Origin: an uncultured Bacteroidota bacterium
Lineage (GTDB): Bacteria > Bacteroidota > Bacteroidia > Bacteroidales > UBA12481
DNA length: 53,080 nt
Assembly (NCBI GenBank): GCA_903919065.1
Contig: CAIXHD010000270.1
Span: 1 to 53,080, forward strand
Direction of reading: 5' to 3'
The position numbers and the translations under genes are program-made. Of the stretch, positions 10,512 through 40,925 are shown piece after piece (position 1 is the stretch's first letter; each line of letters starts with the position of its first letter). A model generated the notes under the pieces. It worked only from the letters and a program-made list of their open reading frames with translations, ran no database searches and had not been told where the DNA came from.

Positions 10512-11207
10512 ATGGAACCACACAATTTCAATTGCGAAATCATCGACGGTCATTGTATTATCCGCGACCAGGGGAATGTCATTCTCCTGGATACCGGGTC
10601 ACCTGTGACTATTCACGAAACCAAGACTTTGAAATTCTTAGGAGATGATTTCGCTACACAGGATCAATATCAGACAAACATCCCTGAACTACGCCATTTA
10701 ACCGGGCTGGATGACCTGACTACCCTGATGGGAACAGATATACTCAGACAATACAAATTATGGTTCAATTACAAATATCAAAAGGTGATTTTCGGTTCCC
10801 CTAACATGCAATCAAAGGGCTACACCATTCCTGTAAAGATGGTTCATGGAATTCCTCTGATAAAGACGCAAATCGGTGAAGTTTCTCATAATACAGTTCT
10901 CGACAGCGGTGCAAGGCTCTCCTACCTCACCGGAAAACTCACTCAAGGCCTTCATGAAGTTGGGAACGAACAGGACTTTTATCCCGGACTGGGATTCTTT
11001 AATACACCAACTTTTGAGGTTTTAACCATTACCGGCGAAAAAGAGATCCCTGTTAAATACGGGAAATTGCCAACACGGATCGAGCCGACCATGGCAGCCC
11101 TGAATTGTAGTACAATTATCGGATATGACCTTTTTAGGAATTTCGCCATTTACCTTGATTTGGAAGGTCCTAACGGCGGCTTAATGACAATTATGGAGCC
11201 TTTTTAA
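10512..11207 (+). CDS. Clan AA (retropepsin/pepsin-like) aspartyl protease with two catalytic-type motifs
   Basis: VILLDTGSPVTIHE (D27) + LMGTDILRQYKLWFNY, then NTVLDSGARLSYL (D131) + IIGYDLFRNFAIYLDL. Confidence 0.75.
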   Translation: MEPHNFNCEIIDGHCIIRDQGNVILLDTGSPVTIHETKTLKFLGDDFATQDQYQTNIPELRHLTGLDDLTTLMGTDILRQYKLWFNYKYQKVIFGSPNMQSKGYTIPVKMVHGIPLIKTQIGEVSHNTVLDSGARLSYLTGKLTQGLHEVGNEQDFYPGLGFFNTPTFEVLTITGEKEIPVKYGKLPTRIEPTMAALNCSTIIGYDLFRNFAIYLDLEGPNGGLMTIMEPF

Positions 11208-12880
11208 ATATTCTCCAGCCTAAAACCGATCCGTGACTGCCTTTCCTTAAGGAGATGTTCCTGACCTGCAATATTATAAAGAAGCCCGTTGGGATCTTCT
11301 CCTTTCTGAATCAGCAGCAGTTGAACCTTGAATTTTATATGCAGCCTCTCGATTTCAGCCGGGGTCGTAATTCCATTATTCTCCAAAAAGTCATTTACCT
11401 CACTCTCGTTAAAATCCGGAAACCGGTTTATGAAGATCGATAGCATAATTTCCTTCTGTGGCGGCTTTACATGAACCACCTGATGAAACCTCCGGTTGAG
11501 CGCTGCATCCAGGTCGGCCGTCTTAAAATTCGTCAGAAAGAAAGCAATTCCCCTGAAACTTTCGAGTTTTGGAAGCAAAAGCGAAATCAGGTTATTGCTC
11601 ATATGATCGGCGGCTGTTGAAGCACTGGCCTCGCGCCTGTATAACAGAGCCTCAGCCTCATCAAAAACACAGATTGGCGTAAGGTCTTCAAAAGCATCAT
11701 ATGCGCTTTCAGCCTCTTTGAAAAGGTCCAGAAGATTTGACTCGCTCTGGCCCACATAACAACTGAGGATATTCGCAATATTTGCCGTCAATATTGGTCT
11801 GCCCGTTTTTCTGGCCAATTGTCGAACAAAGGAGGTTTTGCCGGTACCCGGAGCGCCGGTCAATAAAAAAGTCAGGCCCGGGACTTCTCCTCTTACCTTT
11901 TGATAGGAATCCTTCTCCAGTATCTTTTCGATGAGCTCCAGGTCATTGTTGTCATGCAGATAGCATTCGGCCTCGATTTCATCGGGATTTATCAGTTGGA
12001 ATAAACGTGGATTGAATGATTTTTTTCCAGATTGATAAAAATCCGGAGACAGCTTGCTGAGCTCCATGAGGCTTCGTGGGCTTGGCTTCAGATTGTCGCT
12101 GATGAAAAAATCAACCTCAAAGCGGAGTAAATCCTTCCTGATGAGCACATGCCTTCCGCTTTTAAATTCCTTTTCCGCATCGAACCTCATGAACGGCTCA
12201 TCCGCAATAATCTTTAATATCTTTTCCAGGCTTGCCGATCTTCTGAACAGAATATGATCACGGAGTGTCAGGAAAAATATCACGCAGTCTTCCCGGCTAA
12301 GCTCTTGCTGTATGAGCCATTTCAACTCGGGCAAAGCGGTATGATGATCCACCACCTGGCAGAGTTGCAGCATATAATCTTCGCTAAAAGAATCATCCGA
12401 ACTGCCGATGATTGAATCAAATTCCATCAGAAATCCATTAAATGAGGTTGCCTTTTTCGTCGAAACCAGCTTCCGGAAATTGAGAATTGAAGACAGACAC
12501 CCGGAAGTCAGACTAAATTCTTCACGCTGGTGCCGGAATCCATCAGAATAACCGACCAGCCTTTTAGCAACAAGATCCTGAATGGTGGAGTTCAGCTGGA
12601 CGCACGCCTCCAGGTCCAGGGAAAAATGCCGGGTTATCTCTTTCCAGGTAAGGCCTAAATTTTCAGACAACTTTCGATCTATAAAATAACATAGGACGAT
12701 GACTTCATAGACCGTTTTCAGTCCGAAAAAATTTCGGATTAAGCGAATTCGGGTGGCATCCTCCTCTCCATACTCATGGTAGCGAAAACCATGGATCACG
12801 AAGGACTCCTGCTGCTTGCCTATTATCCGGCACAACTGCTCAGCCTTCTTGTTGCGCTTCTTTTGTTCCGATAATTTCAT
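11204..12880 (-). CDS. AAA+ ATPase with N-terminal HTH-like region
   Basis: Walker A LLTGAPGTGKTSFVRQLARKTGRPI; Walker B PICVFDEAEALL; C-terminal end RIGFRLENI. Confidence 0.9.
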   Translation of the reverse strand: MKLSEQKKRNKKAEQLCRIIGKQQESFVIHGFRYHEYGEEDATRIRLIRNFFGLKTVYEVIVLCYFIDRKLSENLGLTWKEITRHFSLDLEACVQLNSTIQDLVAKRLVGYSDGFRHQREEFSLTSGCLSSILNFRKLVSTKKATSFNGFLMEFDSIIGSSDDSFSEDYMLQLCQVVDHHTALPELKWLIQQELSREDCVIFFLTLRDHILFRRSASLEKILKIIADEPFMRFDAEKEFKSGRHVLIRKDLLRFEVDFFISDNLKPSPRSLMELSKLSPDFYQSGKKSFNPRLFQLINPDEIEAECYLHDNNDLELIEKILEKDSYQKVRGEVPGLTFLLTGAPGTGKTSFVRQLARKTGRPILTANIANILSCYVGQSESNLLDLFKEAESAYDAFEDLTPICVFDEAEALLYRREASASTAADHMSNNLISLLLPKLESFRGIAFFLTNFKTADLDAALNRRFHQVVHVKPPQKEIMLSIFINRFPDFNESEVNDFLENNGITTPAEIERLHIKFKVQLLLIQKGEDPNGLLYNIAGQEHLLKERQSRIGFRLENI

Positions 12881-12997: not shown

Positions 12998-14119
12998 TTA
13001 TCCGAAATTTGTATAGATTCTATTCTCAAGATTCCTGCGACGCAATTCCCTTCTATAGGTAGTGATCAGGTTTATAATCTCCGGGCTATCAATTCTAACC
13101 AGATTCCTATCTAGGTTAATCTTGTTCTGGTTGGCATTTGATGCTATTATGAAATTGTCAAGAAATCGGGAGGGCACCATTTCTTCCAGCTTTCTATTGA
13201 TAGCATTACGATATTGTGCAAATTGGTCGGAACTTTTCAACATCGTTGCAACCGGATTATCACTCCTTGTAGTAAGCCTCTGATATAAGGCAAACATAAA
13301 ATCCTCATTCCATGGCGTTTCTTTGACTGCTGTTGATTTATTATATGTGTTGATGTTATCAAACCGTATGCCTTTATGTAAAAGCAGAAAAATAAAAAAG
13401 GTCTCTTGCGCAGCTCCTGAAAGAAGGTCCGGAATAACCAGGCCAGGTATACTTATCCCATCATTCCGGATGATCAGATCAAGGGGCGCCAGTGTCGGAA
13501 CATTGCCCAGATTAATCTTGAAAGCTGTCCTAACCGTTTCAAATATTCCCAATGCTTGCGGCATTATAGCCTCTCCAGATTGTGTTTTCGAAATCCTTTC
13601 CTGACACAGATCACATATATTGGCCGAAACAAGCTTATGAATAATTTGCTTTTTGCGCTCACAAAAATCGTTCATACAACTTTTAGGTTCCAAATGAAAG
13701 TAGGTCGAGTCCCGGTTGTTTAAGTCAAGGCCCATCAACGTTTGTAGAACATTTTCAACCACTTCATAGGCGATTGCATATTCAACCGGCCGGTTTATAA
13801 ATTCTTCCCATTCATCAGTGTGTATGTATACATTCCTTTCCCCATCGAATGCGCTGAAGAAGTTCCTTGCATTTTTGGTACCTGTCAGTAAAATCACAAA
13901 ATCATCCCTGACAATCCCACAGTCAGAACGAAAATCTTTTGCCTTTTGGAAGAAGGCAGGATGATCCTCTAACCAGTCAATACCCCGGAGTGGTTTTATC
14001 GTATTGGTGAATTGCATTTTCTCGCCTGCCCCTTTGATTTCAACTCCCTCCAATATTTGAAATACTCCTTCGGCCAGGTCAGCCGGGCAATTTTCGGTCC
14101 TACAGATGTGTATTTTCAT
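12998..14119 (-). CDS. Uncharacterised protein with CX4C...CX2C cluster; related to the genes at 17535 and 20204
   Basis: DDFVILLTGTKNARNFFSAFDGERNVYIHTD; SCMNDFCERKKQIIHKLVSANICDLC; C-term AINRKLEEMVPSRFLDNFIIASNANQNKINLDRNLVRI. Confidence 0.75.
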   Translation of the reverse strand: MKIHICRTENCPADLAEGVFQILEGVEIKGAGEKMQFTNTIKPLRGIDWLEDHPAFFQKAKDFRSDCGIVRDDFVILLTGTKNARNFFSAFDGERNVYIHTDEWEEFINRPVEYAIAYEVVENVLQTLMGLDLNNRDSTYFHLEPKSCMNDFCERKKQIIHKLVSANICDLCQERISKTQSGEAIMPQALGIFETVRTAFKINLGNVPTLAPLDLIIRNDGISIPGLVIPDLLSGAAQETFFIFLLLHKGIRFDNINTYNKSTAVKETPWNEDFMFALYQRLTTRSDNPVATMLKSSDQFAQYRNAINRKLEEMVPSRFLDNFIIASNANQNKINLDRNLVRIDSPEIINLITTYRRELRRRNLENRIYTNFG

Positions 14120-14229: not shown

Positions 14230-14385
14230 GATGGAACAGCTAAAAATTTGGATTTCACAGACCTTTACAGAATTAAACATCAACAAGTCCTGTGAAGTTA
14301 AAAATTTCCAAAAAAGTAAAACCGTCGGCGTCAGGTTTTGGCGCCATGGCAGCATACGTTTACCCCCTCAAAAAAATCCCCCCAT

Positions 14386-16074
14386 ATGTTAAGCATCAAC
14401 ATGAAAACCCAATTATTGGAAAGTATTGAGTGCCTGTTTGAAATCTCACGCAACTCGCAGCTCGAGCCCGGGATATTTAAACAATGCTCGAAGGATATCA
14501 AAACCGTTTCGTCATACTTCAAAACCAACCGTCTCCAGTCGATTCTGCTGGCAGTCATTTTTGTAAATAACTGCCAGAGTGAATCGGTAGGCCTGGAAAC
14601 CCTGGGTACACATCTTGGAATTAGTCCGCTCAGGCTATTGCAGGAGAGCAACGATATTGAAGCTCTGACCAAATCAGGAATCATTCGGAAAACAGAAAGA
14701 ACGCGTTCGGGAAGGAAAAACCTTTTAAGGCAGTATTTCGAGATTAACGACTCGGTTATTGAGGCTATGATGGATAACCGGCCAATGCCTGACATGGCTC
14801 CCCCAAAACCACAGGATGCCATCGATCTGCTCCGGTCGCTGAATACTCTCTGGGGAAGGTGCGAACGGGGTGAGCTGAGGCCGGAAGAGCTGCAGCGGGG
14901 AATAAGAGGCCTCCTCGAAGAAAATGAAAAGTTCCCCCTGGTAATGGCTGTCAGAGACCTCGGGATGGAAGATCTGGAAACATTCCTGTTCCTGATGATT
15001 ATCTGGAAAACCCTGAATTCCAACCAGACCACCGAGGTCCAGAAACTGATTGCCCCCATTTTACGGAGTTCCGCCCGATCCATCCGTTACATGCAAAACC
15101 TCAACCTGTCGGAAAACGACCTGATCCGAAAGGATCTGGCAGAGATTGTTGAGGCCGATTTCTTCAGCGATACCTCATTGCGCCTTACTGACAGGGCAGT
15201 CAGAATAATCCGCGAATGCGGCATTAACCTTTACCGGGATGCAAAGAAGAGCGAAAACATCATCCTTCCTGAATCGATTGCAGAAATCAGCCTGGTGTTC
15301 AACTCCGTGGAACGGGAGAGGATTCAGATGCTGAAAAGCATACTGAATGAGGAAAAGCTCACAGAAACCCGCGAAAGGCTTGCCCGGAAGAAACAACCCA
15401 TGGGTATCGCCATCCTGCTTTACGGCCCTCCCGGAACCGGAAAAACTGAGGCGGTATACCAGTTAGCCCGTGAAACTGGTCGTGATATTTTCAAGGTCGA
15501 CATCAGTTCTACCAAGAGTATGTGGTTTGGGGAGAGTGAAAAAATCATCAAGAAGAAACTGTTCACCGATTATTATGCCTACGCCAAGAAATGCGAGAGA
15601 CTGCCCATACTGTTTATCAATGAGGCCGATGCGGTAATTTCAAAACGCAAGCAGGTAGGTGCATCGAATGTTGCCCAAACGGAAAACGCCATCCAGAATA
15701 TCATCCTGGAGGAGCTGGAGAAGTTCGACGGCATCCTTTTCTGCACAACGAACCTGGCTGATAATCTTGATCCGGCTTTTGAAAGAAGGTTCCTTTTCAA
15801 AATCGAACTTGGCGCTCCCGATATCAAATCAAGAAAGGAAATCTGGAGGCTGAAACTGCCTGGTCTGACTTTAGAGGATCTTGGAACCCTTTCCGCCAGG
15901 TTCCACTTTTCGGGTGGGCAGATCAACAACATCGTAAGGAAGGCTGACATGTATGAGATCATCAACGGGGTTGATCCCGATCTGGCAGCCATCATCGGTT
16001 TTTGCGAAGAGGAATCCACAGGCTGGCACGATAGCCGCCAAAGCCTGGGCTTCAGGCTCCCGGAAGCAAGCTGA
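14386..16074 (+). CDS. AAA+ ATPase with N-terminal HTH-like region (related to 11204-12880)
   Basis: Walker A ILLYGPPGTGKTEAVYQLARETGRDI; Walker B-like LPILFINEADAVI; C-terminal SLGFRLPEAS; the supplied TTG start at 14338 is less likely than ATG 14386 or 14401. Confidence 0.9.
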   Translation: MLSINMKTQLLESIECLFEISRNSQLEPGIFKQCSKDIKTVSSYFKTNRLQSILLAVIFVNNCQSESVGLETLGTHLGISPLRLLQESNDIEALTKSGIIRKTERTRSGRKNLLRQYFEINDSVIEAMMDNRPMPDMAPPKPQDAIDLLRSLNTLWGRCERGELRPEELQRGIRGLLEENEKFPLVMAVRDLGMEDLETFLFLMIIWKTLNSNQTTEVQKLIAPILRSSARSIRYMQNLNLSENDLIRKDLAEIVEADFFSDTSLRLTDRAVRIIRECGINLYRDAKKSENIILPESIAEISLVFNSVERERIQMLKSILNEEKLTETRERLARKKQPMGIAILLYGPPGTGKTEAVYQLARETGRDIFKVDISSTKSMWFGESEKIIKKKLFTDYYAYAKKCERLPILFINEADAVISKRKQVGASNVAQTENAIQNIILEELEKFDGILFCTTNLADNLDPAFERRFLFKIELGAPDIKSRKEIWRLKLPGLTLEDLGTLSARFHFSGGQINNIVRKADMYEIINGVDPDLAAIIGFCEEESTGWHDSRQSLGFRLPEAS

Positions 16075-16097: not shown

Positions 16098-16643
16098 ATG
16101 AAAACCCTTATCATTCATCCCCAGGACCGGACAACAACTTTTCTGCAACCTATTTACCAAACTATCCCTGATAAAACGATCATAAGCGGCGGCGCTTTCA
16201 TGAAAGATATCAGGAAAATGATTGATGCACATGAAAGAGTAATGATGATGGGCCATGGATCGCCCCATGGGTTATTATCGGTCGGAAGGTTCTACGACGC
16301 CTTCGGATATGTTATCGACGGCTCCATGGCCGCCAGGCTTTCCGAAAAAAATGGCAATGTCTTTATCTGGTGCAATGCTGACCAGTATGTAAACAAGCAT
16401 AACCTGAAGGGATTTTTCACCGGCATGTTTATCTCAGAGGTTGGCGAGGCTTTGTATTGCGGATTAAAGGGCATTGGTCAGGAACAGATTGATGAATCCA
16501 ACGATGCCTTTACAGGAATTGTATCGAAGTATATCAATGAGCCTGCAGATACAATATATAATAAGTTATTACAGGAGTATGGTGCACTCGCGAAAAGGAA
16601 TCCTGTGGCTATGTACAACTACCAGAGACTTTACTACAACTGA
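16098..16643 (+). CDS. Putative small caspase/CHAT-like (clan CD) cysteine peptidase-fold protein
   Basis: hydrophobic strand then HG: ERVMMMGHGSPHGLL; next strand then Cys: NVFIWCNADQYVNKHNLKGFFTGMFISEVGEA. Confidence 0.5.
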   Translation: MKTLIIHPQDRTTTFLQPIYQTIPDKTIISGGAFMKDIRKMIDAHERVMMMGHGSPHGLLSVGRFYDAFGYVIDGSMAARLSEKNGNVFIWCNADQYVNKHNLKGFFTGMFISEVGEALYCGLKGIGQEQIDESNDAFTGIVSKYINEPADTIYNKLLQEYGALAKRNPVAMYNYQRLYYN

Positions 16644-16734: not shown

Positions 16735-17538
16735 ATGGCGATTAAAATGGCAACTGTTGAGGTAAAAGGAAAAGAGGAATTCGACCGGCTCGTTACTCTA
16801 ATTGACCTCGATCGAACGGAAGATTATGACTGCAGCAGCCTGAATGTCTGGAGTTATCGCAAAGCCTTTGATGTCCGTGAAGGCCTCAGCCTCAGGCTGG
16901 GGAACATGGCGAACGGCTTTCCTTTCACGGTGGAGGGTGTTCCATTTATCAACTCCGAATGCGCCTATATCGCCGGAGCCTATGCATCGGCAGATGATGA
17001 TTCTTCACGGATTCAGAAGATGATTTCAGCTGAGACCAATGGCCAGAAAGCAAAACGGATTTACCGCCACCGCCCGGAGTTCACCTCAATCATGCGGGAT
17101 GATTTCCATTCGTACAATGTCCAGTGGATGTTGCATGTTATCTGGCAGAAATGCCTGTTCAACAAGGACTTCGCAAGGCTCCTGATCAGACTGCCGATTG
17201 ATTCGGTCCTGGCTGAAAACACATCTCTCCATCATGGCGAGACTGCCACTTTCTGGGGTGTAAAAAACAAGGAACTGATGGCGGCGAGGAAGGCAGAAGA
17301 GACGAAAGTAACTCAAAACAATACATTCCGATACAAGAAGGACCTGGAGTTTGCCCAAATGCTGGCTGCCAATAAGGTAAATGGCATTGGCCATTTTACC
17401 GGTATTAATACGATGGGTAAGATATTAAAGCTGTGCAGCCTGAGCCTGATTTATGGTCAAAAACCACCCATCGATTTAGACTTACTGGTAAGCAAGGAGC
17501 TTTACCTGCTTGGAAAGAAAATAAAGTTGAGGAAATGA
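16735..17538 (+). CDS. NADAR (YbiA/DUF1768-like) domain protein
   Basis: FPFTVEGVPFINSECAYIAGAYA...NVQWMLHVIWQKCLFNKDFARLLIRLPIDSVLAEN...ATFWGVKNKELM. Confidence 0.7.
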   Translation: MAIKMATVEVKGKEEFDRLVTLIDLDRTEDYDCSSLNVWSYRKAFDVREGLSLRLGNMANGFPFTVEGVPFINSECAYIAGAYASADDDSSRIQKMISAETNGQKAKRIYRHRPEFTSIMRDDFHSYNVQWMLHVIWQKCLFNKDFARLLIRLPIDSVLAENTSLHHGETATFWGVKNKELMAARKAEETKVTQNNTFRYKKDLEFAQMLAANKVNGIGHFTGINTMGKILKLCSLSLIYGQKPPIDLDLLVSKELYLLGKKIKLRK

Positions 17539-18473
17539 TCGAACGAAAAGGATTTACCAGGATTATTATGCACTGCATACTGGCAGAGGATGTTCCCTTT
17601 CATTTTATTTCAACGATAACAGATATGATGAGTAAGAACCCAGGGCCGGTCTGGCACAAAATTTATGATACGGTCGTTCCCGTATCTCAGGCACGGTACA
17701 GGCAGAACCGGAAGCTTATGCCTGGAGCGGGGATCTTCAGGCCCGGCATCGAAAACCTTTACGAATGGTGCCAGTTGTTCAGGGAATCGGAGAATATCGA
17801 TTGTGACGATGCTGTCGTCATTTTCACAGGGAAGACGCCTCTGAACGGACTCTCCCTGAACTGGGATCCGGCTCATGGCAGGAATTACATCATTTCAACC
17901 GAGGGAAAACAGGGAGCTCCTATACATGAGCGGATTTTCCTGGTGGCCAACGACATGGTTAAAGCTTCCCTGATCCAGGGCGGACTGGTCAAATCGCACA
18001 ATGGAATTCAGGCCGGACTAACGCTTACCAGCATCCGAAAAAGGATGAATGTCTGGAACCGGAACAGGAAATCAGTCAGGTCCATCCCTATGGAGATCAA
18101 TATCCCTGATGGTACTTTAAAATTTCCCAGGCTCGGGGAAATGATCGTCAACCTGTCGAAATACGAAATGGCGGTATACCTGTTTTTCATGGGTCATCCG
18201 GAAGGTATTGACCTAAGAAACCTGAGATTGCATATCAGTGAAATATATAGTGATTACAAAACGTGTCAGAATTGGGGAAGCATCCTGCCGGATATTCCCA
18301 TTGAGGAATTCAGCACCATGGACTTTGGGCTCATCATCCGCACAATCAATGAGAAAATCCGATTCGTAACTGGCGACGGGCTTGCGGGATACTACATAAT
18401 CAGGCCATGCCCAGGCGGGGATAATATCATAGCGGTGGATCGGGAACTTCTGACCGTAATTGGAGATTTTTAA
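17535..18473 (+). CDS. Uncharacterised protein, paralogue of 20204-21085 and distant relative of 12998-14119
   Basis: ATG 17535 overlaps the stop of the NADAR gene (ATGA); DDAVVIFTGKTPLNGLSLNWDPAHGRNYIISTEGK; C-term TINEKIRFVTGDGLAGYYIIRPCPGGDNIIAVDRELLTVI. Confidence 0.8.
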   Translation: MIERKGFTRIIMHCILAEDVPFHFISTITDMMSKNPGPVWHKIYDTVVPVSQARYRQNRKLMPGAGIFRPGIENLYEWCQLFRESENIDCDDAVVIFTGKTPLNGLSLNWDPAHGRNYIISTEGKQGAPIHERIFLVANDMVKASLIQGGLVKSHNGIQAGLTLTSIRKRMNVWNRNRKSVRSIPMEINIPDGTLKFPRLGEMIVNLSKYEMAVYLFFMGHPEGIDLRNLRLHISEIYSDYKTCQNWGSILPDIPIEEFSTMDFGLIIRTINEKIRFVTGDGLAGYYIIRPCPGGDNIIAVDRELLTVIGDF

Positions 18474-20203: not shown

Positions 20204-21085
20204 ATGAACGATAAAAATGTTTCCCCGGAAATTATCATGCATTGCCTGGTAACCGATGATGCCCCTTCTGAACTTATTCCCTATATGCTGGCGCTGATGG
20301 CCCTTTATCAGGGGCCCGTTCATTACCGGTTTCACGATAGGGTATTCAGCACCGGCCTGGAAAATCTTCACGATTGGGCCAAATCGTTCAGGGAAACAGA
20401 GAAAATCAGCCGGGATGATGCCGTTGTTATTTTCACCGGCACCACTCCGCCGACAGGCAAATCGCTGAACTGGGATCCGCGCAATGGCAGAAATTTCATC
20501 ATATCAACCGAAGGAAAGTTGGACCAGGGATTGCCTGATAAAATATTTCAGATAGCCTCCGATCTGGTGATGGCTAACCTGATACAGGCCGGATTGAAGA
20601 GTATCGACCATGGAATTCAGGCCGGACTCACCTATGATGGAGTCCGAAAAAGAATGCTGGCCTGGGACCAAAGCAGAAAGTCGCCGGAGTGTTTACCGAT
20701 GGAGATCAAAGTACCTCTTTCACAAATCAGGTTTCCGGAGATGGAGCAGATATTTATCCATCTGACAACCTACGAACAGGCCATTTACCTGTTTTTTCTC
20801 AAACATTCTGAAGGGATAAATATCCGATCACTGAATAAGCACATCAATGAAATCTACGAAATAGCCGAAACTTGCGAGGAATCAGGAATTTTCCCTGACA
20901 TGATTGATTTTGACGAATTCAGCAAGTTGGATTTCGAAGTCCCCATCCGCTCGATTAATGACCAGATCCGGTTTGTAACCGGTGACAACCTTGCCGATTA
21001 TTACATGATCAGGCAGGATCAAAGCGGAAACTCGGGAATAGCTATGGACCGGAGCCTGCTGACTATAATTAATGATTTTAAGTAA
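20204..21085 (+). CDS. Uncharacterised protein, paralogue of 17535-18473
   Basis: DDAVVIFTGTTPPTGKSLNWDPRNGRNFIISTEGK; SINDQIRFVTGDNLADYYMIRQDQSGNSGIAMDRSLLTI. Confidence 0.8.
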   Translation: MNDKNVSPEIIMHCLVTDDAPSELIPYMLALMALYQGPVHYRFHDRVFSTGLENLHDWAKSFRETEKISRDDAVVIFTGTTPPTGKSLNWDPRNGRNFIISTEGKLDQGLPDKIFQIASDLVMANLIQAGLKSIDHGIQAGLTYDGVRKRMLAWDQSRKSPECLPMEIKVPLSQIRFPEMEQIFIHLTTYEQAIYLFFLKHSEGINIRSLNKHINEIYEIAETCEESGIFPDMIDFDEFSKLDFEVPIRSINDQIRFVTGDNLADYYMIRQDQSGNSGIAMDRSLLTIINDFK

Positions 21086-34390: not shown

Positions 34391-36034
34391 ATGAAAGTAA
34401 AGGAGCTCTTTTCCGTCAATCCAGAAAATATCAACCTTAAGAATGAAGGGGTCTGCCGATTAAGGTCAGACAATCAAAGTGAAAATGATCTTTCAATTGC
34501 TCAGAACGAATTAAAAACCTTCGCTTGCGTGGGTGAATATCATGATGGGCTCAGAAAAATAATGGAAGTTTATCTTCAACATTTCGATGAACCTAAACAA
34601 CACTCATTCTGGGTAAGTGGTTCCTGGGGAAGCGGCAAATCTCATCTTGTGAAAATGGCCGGATACTTGTGGACTGATTTCGAATTCCCAGATGGAACAA
34701 GAGCCCGCTCTATAAAGCCTCTACCCCCAGAAATTGAAGATCTTTTATTCGAACTCGACCGTAAGCAGAAAATTTATGGAAAGCTATCCATAGCGGGAAC
34801 ATTAAGGGATTTCCCATCAAAGGATGTCCGGTATTCATTCATTCAATTGCTCTTAAATACGCTTGGGCTACCATCGCAATACCATCATTTCAAATTTATG
34901 TATTGGGCCAAAAAGGAAGGAATTTATGATGGATTAAAAGCTTTGGTTGAAGCCAAAGGCAGAAATCTGGACAAAGAAATTGGAAATCTTTATGTGTCTT
35001 ATACTTTAGCGAAGGCAATCCTGGAATTAAAGCCTGAATTAGCTGAGAATGCTGACAAACTCCTTGATCAGATTGGTGCACAATTTCCGAGAGTTGAGAT
35101 TATTGGTAGGGAAGATTTTGTAAGAATCATAAAAGAAGAGATTCTTCCCATTTCATTTGGGAGTAAAATCCCTTGTACAATTATTGCATTAGATGACATC
35201 CATCACTTTGTCGGCCAAGATATCAATCTTGCGTTGGACCTTATGATGCTAAAAGAGGTTTTGTCTTGCCACTTCAATGGCAGGTTTTTATTAGTTGTCA
35301 CCGCAGGAAATACATTAAATGAAAATCCTATCCTTCAAAAGTTGAAAGGCAAATTTGAAAGAGGGATTCATTTGGCAGTAATTGACAACCAATCCGTTTT
35401 AAGAAATACGATTTTGCAGAAGAAGGAAACAGCCTATGCGCAAATTAATTCTATACTTGAATCCTCCTTAGGCGCAATATCAAACAATCTGGAAAATACC
35501 ATTTTTGAGTACCTACCTGAAGATCGGAAAACCCTGGTTGCCGATTATCCTATTCTCCCATCAACCATAAAATTTTGGGACGCAGTACTACAGGTTACTA
35601 AACTGACCGGCATATCAGACTCATTGAGATATCGACTTCGGATTGTTGGTGAAGGATTAAAACAAATAGCTAACACAGAAGTTGGCACTTTGGTTCCAGC
35701 CGATTTTATCTTTACCATGTCGCATCCCTTATACCTTCAGTCAGGATTATTGCACATTGGAACCCATAAAATAATCCAAGAAAAAAAGGCAAAAGGAGGT
35801 GATTATGAACTCGAGGGGCGCATCTTGAGTGCAATTTTCCTTTTGGATCAAGTTATTTCGAACACTATAGGCACCGGATTGATTTCTGATAAGATAACCA
35901 TTTCGGATTTGCTTATTGACAACCTGTATTTAAATTCAGATACTTTCCGAAATAAGATTAAAGAACTCATTGACAATTTGGTGAATGAGAAGGTGATCAT
36001 AGCCGTTGGAAATGAATATAAGCTTTATACCTAA
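34391..36034 (+). CDS. Truncated BrxC paralogue (N-terminal ATPase half only); possible pseudogene
   Basis: Aligns with residues 1 to about 545 of the downstream 1144-aa BrxC; Walker A SGSWGSGKSHLVKMAGYLW; ends at NEYKLYT where BrxC has DQYKLQTKIGAEWEQ. Confidence 0.88.
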   Translation: MKVKELFSVNPENINLKNEGVCRLRSDNQSENDLSIAQNELKTFACVGEYHDGLRKIMEVYLQHFDEPKQHSFWVSGSWGSGKSHLVKMAGYLWTDFEFPDGTRARSIKPLPPEIEDLLFELDRKQKIYGKLSIAGTLRDFPSKDVRYSFIQLLLNTLGLPSQYHHFKFMYWAKKEGIYDGLKALVEAKGRNLDKEIGNLYVSYTLAKAILELKPELAENADKLLDQIGAQFPRVEIIGREDFVRIIKEEILPISFGSKIPCTIIALDDIHHFVGQDINLALDLMMLKEVLSCHFNGRFLLVVTAGNTLNENPILQKLKGKFERGIHLAVIDNQSVLRNTILQKKETAYAQINSILESSLGAISNNLENTIFEYLPEDRKTLVADYPILPSTIKFWDAVLQVTKLTGISDSLRYRLRIVGEGLKQIANTEVGTLVPADFIFTMSHPLYLQSGLLHIGTHKIIQEKKAKGGDYELEGRILSAIFLLDQVISNTIGTGLISDKITISDLLIDNLYLNSDTFRNKIKELIDNLVNEKVIIAVGNEYKLYT

Positions 36035-36214
36035 ATCGACGCCCATTAGGAGTGAGAGTCTTCAATCAAGATGCCGCTAAACAAATCAGAGAAAAGCATA
36101 ATCTTTTTGATTCTTAAGGTAAAGAATGAAAATATCTTAATTTAAATCCGCGCATCAAATTTCTGCTTGAAAAGCTTATCTTAGAAGTATCACTTCTTTT
36201 AAAATTTATTAATA

Positions 36215-36946
36215 ATGATGAGAAAAATTCGAACAATACATACTTCCAGAACCTTGATGTTTTCTGAGTTAGAGAAAGTCATGGATTATTCTATTGAATC
36301 ATCTAATTTTAATGAGGCCCTAAGCATAAATGTTACCGGCAAGAAATCAAACTCAGGGGTTGAAAAGACGGCGAACTACCTAAAACTGCTATACGGCTTC
36401 GATGCAAAAAATCCCCACTTTGCTGCATTTAAGTACTTCTGGCAAACCTCCGAACATGCTGAAAAACCCCTCTTTGCTTTCGTATATGCTTGTAAACAGG
36501 ATGACCTATTGTCAGAAAATCTTTCGGTCATTAGTGAAACCCGTATAGGAGAAAAAGTCCTGATTGAAAGGTTGGAAGAGAATATCGAAAAGCTCCATCC
36601 AAATCAGTATTCTCCCAATACCCGCAGGTCAGTTGCCCAAAATATAGCCAGTTCATTCAAGCAGGCAGGTTTTGTTGAGGGTAAGGTTAAGAATTTACGA
36701 GTCCAACGTGAAATTACTTACCCTGTAGCCTGCTTCGCCTTTCTGATGGCATATTTAGATGGGGATCGTGGGGATTTCATTTGGAACAATCGAAGCGTAA
36801 CAACCCTTATGCTTTCAGAATTTAGGCTGCGAGAATTAGCTTTAGAATGTACAAAACGGGATTTGATGCAATACCAGTTTGGCGGAGGTGTAACAGCAAT
36901 CTCTTTCAACAACTTGTTAAACAAAATTGGAATTGATGCAATCTAA
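36215..36946 (+). CDS. brxA: BREX protein BrxA (DUF1819)
   Basis: Size, sequence feel and position immediately upstream of brxB-brxC; IRTIHTSRTLMFSELEKVMDYS. Confidence 0.88.
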   Translation: MMRKIRTIHTSRTLMFSELEKVMDYSIESSNFNEALSINVTGKKSNSGVEKTANYLKLLYGFDAKNPHFAAFKYFWQTSEHAEKPLFAFVYACKQDDLLSENLSVISETRIGEKVLIERLEENIEKLHPNQYSPNTRRSVAQNIASSFKQAGFVEGKVKNLRVQREITYPVACFAFLMAYLDGDRGDFIWNNRSVTTLMLSEFRLRELALECTKRDLMQYQFGGGVTAISFNNLLNKIGIDAI

Positions 36947-37481
36947 ATTAGATCAATTGATAGAGGCATTTGAAAAGGTCGTTAATGAGCCTTGGTCATC
37001 TGCTTTATCCGGTCAGGAGCGGATTTGGTTTTTGGTGTATGATCCTGCGGAGCAACGCAAAGTGGATTTTAGATTGGGCGATTTTGAGGCCTCAACTTTA
37101 AAGGCTGGGAAAAAATTGCGCATCGTTTCTATGAAGAATTGCTTTCCTCTCTGGATGGTAAACCATGAGTATAGAGAAGGATACTTCAAAAACCCAGGGT
37201 TTATTATCGACCAATTGGAAGCTGAGTTTATTCCTTTTGCGATTGAGTTTTTAAAGAATGAATTGCGGAATACCGCACAAGATTCGGATACATTGATTGC
37301 TATTAGGGATGTTTCCTCACTTTTCGGTTTCCTTCGGTTATCTGAAATTCTTAAGAGCTGTGTCAAAGATCTCCAGGGACGCATGCTGATATTTTTCCCA
37401 GGAGAATTTGAACACAATCATTACCGCCTGCTGGATGCAAGAGATGGGTGGGATTATTTAGCCAGACCAATAACCTTATAA
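36927..37481 (+). CDS. brxB: BREX protein BrxB (DUF1788)
   Basis: EPWSSALSGQERIWFLVYDPAEQRKVDFRLGDFE; position between brxA and brxC. Confidence 0.88.
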   Translation: MELMQSKLDQLIEAFEKVVNEPWSSALSGQERIWFLVYDPAEQRKVDFRLGDFEASTLKAGKKLRIVSMKNCFPLWMVNHEYREGYFKNPGFIIDQLEAEFIPFAIEFLKNELRNTAQDSDTLIAIRDVSSLFGFLRLSEILKSCVKDLQGRMLIFFPGEFEHNHYRLLDARDGWDYLARPITL

Positions 37482-37490
37482 AGTACTAAA

Positions 37491-40400
37491 ATGAAGAACA
37501 AAGAGCTATTTACGTTGAATCCTGAGGAGGTTAACCTTAAGAATGAAGGGGTTGCAAAGATCAGAAACATCAACGAGAAGGATGACCTAGCCATTGCCGA
37601 ATATGAATTAAGGACTTTTGTTTGTGATGGGGAATACTTTGAAGGGTTGAAAAAGATGCTCGATGTATACCTGAGTAATTATAATAGCCCCGTTCAACCA
37701 ACTTTTTGGGTTAGCGGGTTTTACGGAAGCGGAAAATCTCATTTGGTTAAAATGGCAGGGTATCTTTGGGAAGATTTTAAATTTCCAAACGGTAGTACCG
37801 CTAGGAATATCAAACCATTGCCCCAAGAGATTCAGGACTTATTTATTGAGATTGACCGTAAGCAAAATATCCAAGGAAAATTATCCATTGCAGGCACATT
37901 GAGGGATTTCCCATCAAAAGATATCCGGTATTCATTCATTCAATTGCTTTTAAATACGCTTGGGCTTCCATCGCAATACCATCATTTCAAATTTATGTAT
38001 TGGGCCAAAAAGGAAGGAATTTATGATGGATTAAAAGCTTTGGTTGAAGCCAAAGGCAGAAAATTGGACAAAGAAATTGAAAATCTTTTTTTGTCTGATA
38101 CTTTAGCGAAGTCGATCCTGGAATTAAAGCCTGAATTAGCTGAGAATGCTGCCAAACTGCTTGATCAGATTGGTGCGCAGTTTCCGAGAGTTGAGATTAT
38201 TGGCAGGGAAGAATTTGTTAAAACAATCAAAGAAGAGATTCTACCTCTTATTTACGGAGACAAAATCCCCTGTACCATTATTATTTTGGATGAGGTCCAG
38301 CAGTTCATCGGCCAGGATCCATATCTTGCTGAAAATGTACAATTCCTTGCAGAAGACCTTAGTTCAAGGTTTGATGGCAAATTTCTATTGGTGGGTACGG
38401 GCCAAAATGCATTAACAGATACACCCATTCTGCAAAAAATGATGGCCCGGTTCAGGGTTTCGATACAACTTACCAATAACGACATTCAAACCGTAATCCG
38501 GAAAACTATCCTTCAGAAGAAAGCATCAGCGCTTGCGCCCTTGAACACCAAAATGGAGGCTTCCTCTGGCGAAATAGCTCGTAACCTCCAATGTACTGTT
38601 TTTGGATACCGGACCGATGATAAAGACACACTTGTCGCGGATTATCCATTGCTCCCATCTACCCGGAAATTCTGGTATAAAGTATTGCAAGTGGTTGACG
38701 TGGCAGGAACCTCGGGTCAGCTACGTAACCAATTACGTTTAATTGATGACAGTTTAAAAACTCTCGCTGAAAAAGAAGTAGGCTATGTAGTACCTGCAGA
38801 CTTTATTTTCACACAAACTCGTTCAGACCTTATCCAGGCTGGGCTATTGTTAAACGACACAAGCAATCTCATTCAGGGAAAGAAATCTAAAGGTGGGGAT
38901 TCGGAAATAGAAGGTAGAATTCTCAGCGCAGTTTTTTTATTGGATCAAATCACTTCAAATATTACAGACACTGGATTGAAATCCAATGAAAACACCATTG
39001 CTGATCTGCTGATTGACAATTTGAATGTAAACTCTGATGCATTCCGTACCAAGATCAAAGAGCTGATTAAAAAGTTGGTCGATGAAAAATATCTCATGCC
39101 TATTACCGATCAGTACAAGTTACAAACGAAAATTGGGGCTGAATGGGAACAGGAATTCACCAAGCAATACATCAAGCTTAACAACTCAGGTGATGACCAG
39201 ATTCAAAGCCTGAGAAGGGAAAAGATGGTTGCCCACTTTAAGGATAAAACAAGAGCCATCAGCGTTTCGCAAGGCACTTCCCGGATGGTGCGTGAATTCG
39301 AACTTTGGGATAAAAATACCATACCCAACACTGAGCATAAATTGAACCTATGGATTCGTGACGGATGGTTTGAAAATGAAACTTCCGTTGAAAATGAAAT
39401 CCGTGCTGCCGGCAATAATGCTCCATTGGCATACGCCTTTGTCAAGAAATTAAGAGCCCCTGAATTAAGAACAGAAATAATCAAGTTCTTAGCTACCGGA
39501 TTAGCTATAAACGCGATGGGCCTACCTTCAACCCCTGAGGGTGAGCAAGCTAAAAAAAGCATGGAAACCCGCCAGTCACAGGCAAAAACTGCGATTCAAG
39601 AATTAGTGGAGAAGATCTGCGATGAAACCAAAGTATACCTTGCTGGTGGCACACTAATTCAATCTGGCACCTTGAAAGAGAAGATCCAGGAAGCGCTCAA
39701 TAGTATTGCGGATCGCCAATTCCCAGAATTTAAGAGCAAAGCAGACTTCTTAAACTGGGGACAGGCATTGACCAAAGCTCTGGCTGGCAATCCGGATGCA
39801 TTGAATTCCATCAATTATGTTGGAGACGATGAAAAGCACCCTTTATCGGTCGAGATATTGAGGTTTCTGGGCAACGGCACTAAACCTGGCAGAGACATCC
39901 GAAACCATTTTATGAAAGCACCCTATGGATGGAGCCAGGATGCTATTGATACGATTTTATTGGTTTTGAAAAATTCGGCTTGGATTTCGACCTCTGAAAC
40001 AAATCTGATTGTTGCTAAAATTAATCAGGCTTCCTTTAAAAAAGAAGTCCATATTCTTACCGCAAGGGATAAAATGGACATTCGAATTCTATTTCAAAAT
40101 GCCGGGATTGCTTGTCCCCCGAATCATGAAATATTTCCATATTCAAACGAATACCTTGAAAAGTTAAAAGCCCTTGCAAACCAAGTAAGCGGAGATGCAC
40201 CACGGCCAGAACCTATCAACATAGATTTCATTAAAGAAATTGAAAACAAAGAAGGCAATGAACGTTTGCTGGAAATACTCCAACAAAAGATTGACTTGCA
40301 GGCCAGATTTACTGATTGGAGTTCAAAAGCGAAATTGGTAACAAAAAGAGAGCCGTCATGGGTTTTACTGTTGGATCTGACGAACCATGCTCCGGACGAA

Positions 40401-40925
40401 CCTGAACTGGATTCACTTAAAACAGAAATCAAGGCCATCAGGGATAATCGACTCCTGCTCCAGGAGCCTGATCCTATTCAGACTATTTTAAATGCGATTA
40501 CAGAAAAATTGGTGAGCATCCTGAACACAAGAAAAGGTCAATTCAATGCATTATATGATCTTAAAATGGTTGACTTACAGGCTAATGAGTATTTCAAGAA
40601 TTTAACACCCGAGCAAAAGCACAGCATTCTGGTGAAACATCAAATTTTGGTAAAGCCGGAAGTTAAGGTATTGGATGCACATGCACTGCTCAATCAGCTA
40701 CAAAAAGCATCGTTATATATCTGGGATACCAAAATAGCGGCATTACCCGGACAGTTTCAGTCAGCATTGGAAGATGCCATTGCGGTGTCTGCACCTCAGG
40801 CAAAGACATACAGCCTTCCCCGCAAAACCATTACCAACCAGACTGACATTGATTCTTACCTGATAGCATTGAAAACCGATTTGGAAAATTTATTGCATGA
40901 ATCAAGCTCAATCATTTTAAAGTAA
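37491..40925 (+). CDS. brxC: BREX ATPase BrxC
   Basis: ELFTLNPEEVNLKNEGVAKI; Walker A SGFYGSGKSHLVKMAGYLW; Walker B CTIIILDEVQQFIGQD. Confidence 0.94.
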   Translation: MKNKELFTLNPEEVNLKNEGVAKIRNINEKDDLAIAEYELRTFVCDGEYFEGLKKMLDVYLSNYNSPVQPTFWVSGFYGSGKSHLVKMAGYLWEDFKFPNGSTARNIKPLPQEIQDLFIEIDRKQNIQGKLSIAGTLRDFPSKDIRYSFIQLLLNTLGLPSQYHHFKFMYWAKKEGIYDGLKALVEAKGRKLDKEIENLFLSDTLAKSILELKPELAENAAKLLDQIGAQFPRVEIIGREEFVKTIKEEILPLIYGDKIPCTIIILDEVQQFIGQDPYLAENVQFLAEDLSSRFDGKFLLVGTGQNALTDTPILQKMMARFRVSIQLTNNDIQTVIRKTILQKKASALAPLNTKMEASSGEIARNLQCTVFGYRTDDKDTLVADYPLLPSTRKFWYKVLQVVDVAGTSGQLRNQLRLIDDSLKTLAEKEVGYVVPADFIFTQTRSDLIQAGLLLNDTSNLIQGKKSKGGDSEIEGRILSAVFLLDQITSNITDTGLKSNENTIADLLIDNLNVNSDAFRTKIKELIKKLVDEKYLMPITDQYKLQTKIGAEWEQEFTKQYIKLNNSGDDQIQSLRREKMVAHFKDKTRAISVSQGTSRMVREFELWDKNTIPNTEHKLNLWIRDGWFENETSVENEIRAAGNNAPLAYAFVKKLRAPELRTEIIKFLATGLAINAMGLPSTPEGEQAKKSMETRQSQAKTAIQELVEKICDETKVYLAGGTLIQSGTLKEKIQEALNSIADRQFPEFKSKADFLNWGQALTKALAGNPDALNSINYVGDDEKHPLSVEILRFLGNGTKPGRDIRNHFMKAPYGWSQDAIDTILLVLKNSAWISTSETNLIVAKINQASFKKEVHILTARDKMDIRILFQNAGIACPPNHEIFPYSNEYLEKLKALANQVSGDAPRPEPINIDFIKEIENKEGNERLLEILQQKIDLQARFTDWSSKAKLVTKREPSWVLLLDLTNHAPDEPELDSLKTEIKAIRDNRLLLQEPDPIQTILNAITEKLVSILNTRKGQFNALYDLKMVDLQANEYFKNLTPEQKHSILVKHQILVKPEVKVLDAHALLNQLQKASLYIWDTKIAALPGQFQSALEDAIAVSAPQAKTYSLPRKTITNQTDIDSYLIALKTDLENLLHESSSIILK

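Follow-up and report, generated by a model that had tools for sequence, protein, structure and literature searches.

The IetAS system pairs an AAA+ protein, IetA, with a subtilisin-like protein, IetS. A second relevant group of proteases, the CHAT peptidases, serves in antiviral systems, including SAVED-CHAT of type III CRISPR (PDB 8tl0) and TPR-CHAT of Craspase (7y84). In the caspase/haemoglobinase fold of clan CD enzymes, the elements follow the order beta1-alpha1-beta2-alpha2-beta3-small beta section-alpha3-beta4, with one dyad residue at the end of beta3 and the other at the end of beta4 (PMC4357240). Within this clan, Arg-specific enzymes carry a Gly beside the catalytic His and a set of Arg-pocket acids, namely an Asp at alpha1 (MALT1 D365, RgpB D163), an Asp on L4 (MALT1 D462) and a Glu on L5 (MALT1 E500) (PMC4357240).

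This study examined a small protein encoded by an uncultured Bacteroidota bacterium, on a stretch of 53,080 nucleotides that was analysed as a whole and is referred to here as the window. The protein is very probably a minimal clan CD (CHAT/caspase-fold) peptidase, and it is called the peptidase below. Its family, which has no name in any database, occurs mainly in phages and also in bacterial defence islands; the open-licence papers on phage-encoded caspases that were consulted contained no description of this family.

The peptidase gene and its surroundings

An earlier note on this DNA had proposed a 181-residue caspase/CHAT-like protease without extra domains. The translation of the ORF contains each of the motifs named there, GHGSPHG with H53 and H57, FIWCNAD with C92, and GFFTGMFISEVGEA at residues 105-118, and the feature positions are collected in Table 1. 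The ORF represents a real gene, since its phage homologues reach 59% identity along the whole protein and a paralogue in the same genome is 54% identical.

Table 1. Positions within the window of the peptidase gene, its putative functional residues and the two AAA+ genes; fractions refer to 194 distinct aligned homologues.
Feature	Coordinates	Strand	Basis
Peptidase ORF, ATG start, 181 aa; putative cysteine peptidase of clan CD (CHAT/caspase fold) with a single domain	16098..16643	+	AF2 pLDDT 98, Foldseek clan CD matches, conserved dyad
D10 codon, immediately ahead of alpha1, candidate S1-pocket acid	16125..16127	+	190/194, remaining 4 are gaps
G52-H53-G54 codons, beta3 end, putative catalytic His motif	16251..16259	+	H53 192/194, G52 193/194, G54 192/194
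W91-C92 codons, beta4 end, putative catalytic Cys	16368..16373	+	C92 194/194, W91 192/194
D95 codon, loop after beta4 (L4), candidate S1-pocket acid	16380..16382	+	172/194 (89%)
E117 codon, after beta5 (L5), candidate S1-pocket acid	16446..16448	+	189/194 (97%)
AAA+ ATPase, IetA-like, directly upstream of the peptidase	14338..16074	+	Walker A GPPGTGKT, Walker B ILFINEAD; Pfam AAA 7e-24; PADLOC IetA 5e-23
Second AAA+ ATPase, related to the first, with a DEAE Walker B	11204..12880	-	Pfam AAA 3e-20; relative in locus L263 (AAA E 3e-127)

The window is an integrase-bearing BREX/RecBCD defence island, with genes for an integrase (2201), SbcD/SbcC, the two AAA+ ATPases, a 5'-nucleotidase, a vWA protein, RecD/RecC/RecB, BrxC (one short and one full copy), PglX, PglZ, BrxL and an ADP-ribosylglycohydrolase. 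PglX is present twice, at 40925 and 44170. In the region 34391-37481, the first BrxC copy covers the N-terminal half of the profile only (547 aa), and smaller ORFs separate it from full-length BrxC at 37491; the short copy is probably a broken duplicate. Three apparently related unnamed proteins, encoded at 12998-14119 (-), 17433-18473 (+) and 20204-21085 (+), share a DDFVILLTG / DDAVVIFTG motif, and relatives of these proteins lie near the peptidase gene in the loci L254, L262, L263 and, weakly, L253, adjoining vWA genes in L262 and L263. The gene that follows the peptidase, at 16735-17538, matches phrog_1017, a family of unknown function (E 5e-8), and no relatives of this gene were found near other peptidase copies. 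Additionally, the product of 10512-11207 weakly resembles retropepsin-like aspartyl proteases (PF00077, E 0.024, below the cut-off); its gene and the second AAA+ gene meet head-on and may be another AAA+/protease pairing.

Distribution of the family and the adjoining AAA+ ATPase

Viral homologues dominate the family, with 251-271 IMG/VR stretches recovered per profile scan (about 270 viral contigs) and further homologues detected in one phage scaffold and 15 Prevotella Lak megaphages. Homologues were also present in 64 GTDB contigs, mostly from Bacteroidota; some of these are probably phage contigs that were binned with bacteria, and L251 and L252 resemble one contig placed in two different bins. 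The PLSDB plasmids held no relatives. In the phage contigs L011/L054, L012/L046 and L013/L055, two different peptidase copies lie about 38 kb apart. Chromosomal copies in gut Bacteroidales (L279, L283, L303 and other Prevotella loci) lie near genes for vWA, macro-like, NUDIX, low-molecular-weight phosphatase and AAA+ proteins, several of them named by eye. In two Bacteroidota genomes (L089:1351-3356 and L090:25-2148), genes for distant relatives with a GHG...LSCNS pattern form a run of three together with those for a GHKL ATPase and a small protein without a name, and a wider search for this far-branch subfamily among 396 genomes returned those two only.

The earlier note had the peptidase encoded right after an AAA+ ATPase on the same strand, which is the arrangement seen: the IetA-like gene, which may actually begin at an ATG further downstream, ends 23 bp ahead of the peptidase start codon. 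In three other contigs (L267, L268 and L269), a member of the same ATPase family immediately precedes the peptidase gene, in the same orientation and 8-55 bp away, and L263 encodes a relative of the second AAA+ ATPase two genes upstream of its peptidase gene. Overall, 9 of the 64 GTDB loci had a gene of this AAA+ family no more than 8 kb from the peptidase gene, vs. none of the 244 viral loci (E<1e-20; Fisher p 5e-7). The peptidases linked to AAA+ genes do not fall into a single clade, with at least four changes forced by supported branches of the tree; most peptidase family members have no AAA+ neighbour, and some of the linkage could stem from both genes residing in defence islands. Nearly all members seen of the upstream ATPase family have a Walker B of the NEAD type (Asn for Asp), and several adjoin WYL-domain regulators.

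It is quite possible, if somewhat short of probable, that a clan CD peptidase works alone in this island as in phages, for example as a captured counter-defence or superinfection protein, and that the AAA+ ATPase is a mere neighbour in a crowded locus. The phage loci are consistent with such an arrangement, having variable small accessory genes as neighbours, no constant gene partner and, in one of 244 cases, a weak AAA+ relative nearby; furthermore, the ATPase family in other genomes occurs mostly without the peptidase and often beside WYL regulators, and the paralogue in this genome has no adjacent AAA+ gene. The direct adjacency in the three other contigs, which fall on separate branches, argues against it, as does the rarity of the ATPase family (13 of 396 genomes of the phylum). 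Gating by the ATPase, as suggested in the earlier note, is plausible because the AAA+ gene directly precedes the peptidase gene in these contigs, yet is absent near the phage copies, and that the AAA+ ATPase gates the peptidase in this island is a reasonable hypothesis that can be held tentatively.

Predicted fold, dyad and specificity

The AF2 model of the peptidase, built from an alignment of 134 sequences, has a pLDDT of 98.0 and a pTM of 0.92, and the model of a 31%-identical Prevotella relative has a pLDDT of 96.9. By DSSP, both predicted structures follow the order beta1-alpha1-beta2-alpha2-beta3-His-small beta section-alpha3-beta4-Cys-helix-beta5, that of the caspase/haemoglobinase fold, and place the His and the Cys at the C-terminal ends of beta3 and beta4, respectively (strand 47-52 then H53 and strand 87-91 then C92 in the peptidase model, with the same arrangement in the relative). 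In Foldseek comparisons with the PDB, the model of the Prevotella relative gave CHAT peptidases at ranks 1-7, with SAVED-CHAT first (E 5.8e-4, prob 1.00, TMq 0.54) and then TPR-CHAT. The peptidase's own model gave gingipain R (RgpB, C25; PDB 4ief/1cvr) as the match with the highest TM-score among those listed (TMq 0.48, prob 0.98), with all E-values above 0.001 and the gingipain matches interspersed with flavodoxin and receiver folds, and the BFVD viral models gave no match at E <= 0.001. The element order in two confident models and the structural matches therefore support the single-domain caspase/CHAT-like protease proposed in the earlier note.

No statistically strong sequence match was obtained between the peptidase family and any clan CD family. 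An hhalign comparison with C14 caspases (profile from related genomes) aligned 122 columns with His and Cys in register at E 0.0021, compared with 0.04 for the best of 45 decoy families and 0.0043 on 12 columns for the reversed C14 profile; because of the latter value the score is weak taken alone. Profile comparisons with CHAT, C11 and receiver domains covered 11-17 columns only (CHAT 11) and were considered noise. No Pfam, PHROGs, NCBIfam, PADLOC or PDB-sequence family matched the peptidase, CHAT (PF12770) gave no match to it at E 1, and neither CHAT nor Peptidase_C14 (PF00656) was among the families listed for the 134 members. Scattered weak matches, such as ribosomal S12 and Peptidase_C50 (3/134, E 0.024), were not relied on.

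The His-Cys dyad layout that had been read from the sequence held for H53, which is almost invariant among the distinct homologues, and for C92, which is invariant; it did not hold for H57, whose column contains at most 19% of any one residue and which was therefore ruled out as a dyad member, leaving H53/C92 as the putative catalytic dyad. The homologue scans ran several patterns, some of which contain neither His nor Cys, so the conservation of the pair is not merely a product of search selection, and the set may retain some bias toward intact motifs. T13, Y20, M110 and N174 are also nearly invariant.

An enzyme of Rossmann-like fold that uses Cys and His on a small molecule or for protein modification, and is no peptidase, is an unlikely alternative to the clan CD assignment; these additional near-invariant residues and the flavodoxin and receiver folds matched by the peptidase's own model would suit it, whereas the CHAT ranking of the Prevotella relative, the C14 alignment of both His and Cys and the position of the two residues at the beta3 and beta4 ends, which is the clan CD signature (PMC4357240), argue for a clan CD peptidase.

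D10, D95 and E117 of the peptidase correspond in position to MALT1 D365, D462 and E500, an equivalence drawn by secondary structure, and the His sits in GHG. Because these residues are placed as in Arg-specific clan CD enzymes, the peptidase is predicted to cleave probably after basic residues (Arg/Lys at P1).

Proposed role and comparison with described systems

Combined, the results are explained with good confidence by a minimal clan CD peptidase with an H53/C92 dyad and probably a basic P1 preference, which would be a mobile conflict gene in an apparent operon with an IetA-like AAA+ ATPase. Because of the phage distribution and the residence in defence islands, the peptidase likely acts in phage-host conflict. 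It would be the executing part, cleaving a host or phage protein during infection, and the AAA+ ATPase would control or feed it in this island. A maturation protease for phage structural proteins that was later acquired by bacteria would fit the mainly phage-borne distribution but is very improbable, as the neighbours are variable accessory genes and no fixed head or tail module, the gene also resides in defence islands, and the known prohead proteases are serine enzymes of other folds. A broader and more doubtful extension of the conflict role is that phages carry a stand-alone caspase-like peptidase as a weapon against hosts or rival phages, and that bacteria have acquired it repeatedly and coupled it to IetA-like AAA+ ATPases, giving an AAA+/caspase defence module not described before.

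A compact, unnamed clan CD family across hundreds of phages, including megaphages, would add caspase-type proteolysis to the phage repertoire. Additionally, the recurrence of its gene after that of an IetA-like ATPase in bacterial defence islands suggests that IetAS is joined by a second defence architecture of the AAA+/protease kind. Being 181 residues long, with an evident dyad and a preference predicted to be for Arg/Lys, the peptidase is readily testable.

Compared with the CHAT peptidases, which are the best structural matches of a family member, the peptidase shares the HG...C layout, but it has no SAVED, TPR or other domain, is only 181 residues long, has no Pfam CHAT match and could not be aligned by profile, and its family is mostly phage-borne. 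With gingipain R it shares a Gly on both sides of the His and an Asp at alpha1 (an Arg-pocket acid in gingipain), whereas it lacks the N-terminal subdomain and the prodomain and has no detectable sequence similarity. The C14 enzymes (caspases, paracaspases and orthocaspases) resemble it in the register of His and Cys and, by secondary structure, in pocket acids as in MALT1; in contrast, the profile score is near that of the reversed control, Pfam C14 does not match and the peptidase is smaller. Like IetAS, the putative pair described here combines an IetA-type AAA+ ATPase and a candidate protease in the context of defence, but the partner gene encodes a clan CD-type putative cysteine peptidase with no PADLOC match in place of the subtilisin-like IetS.
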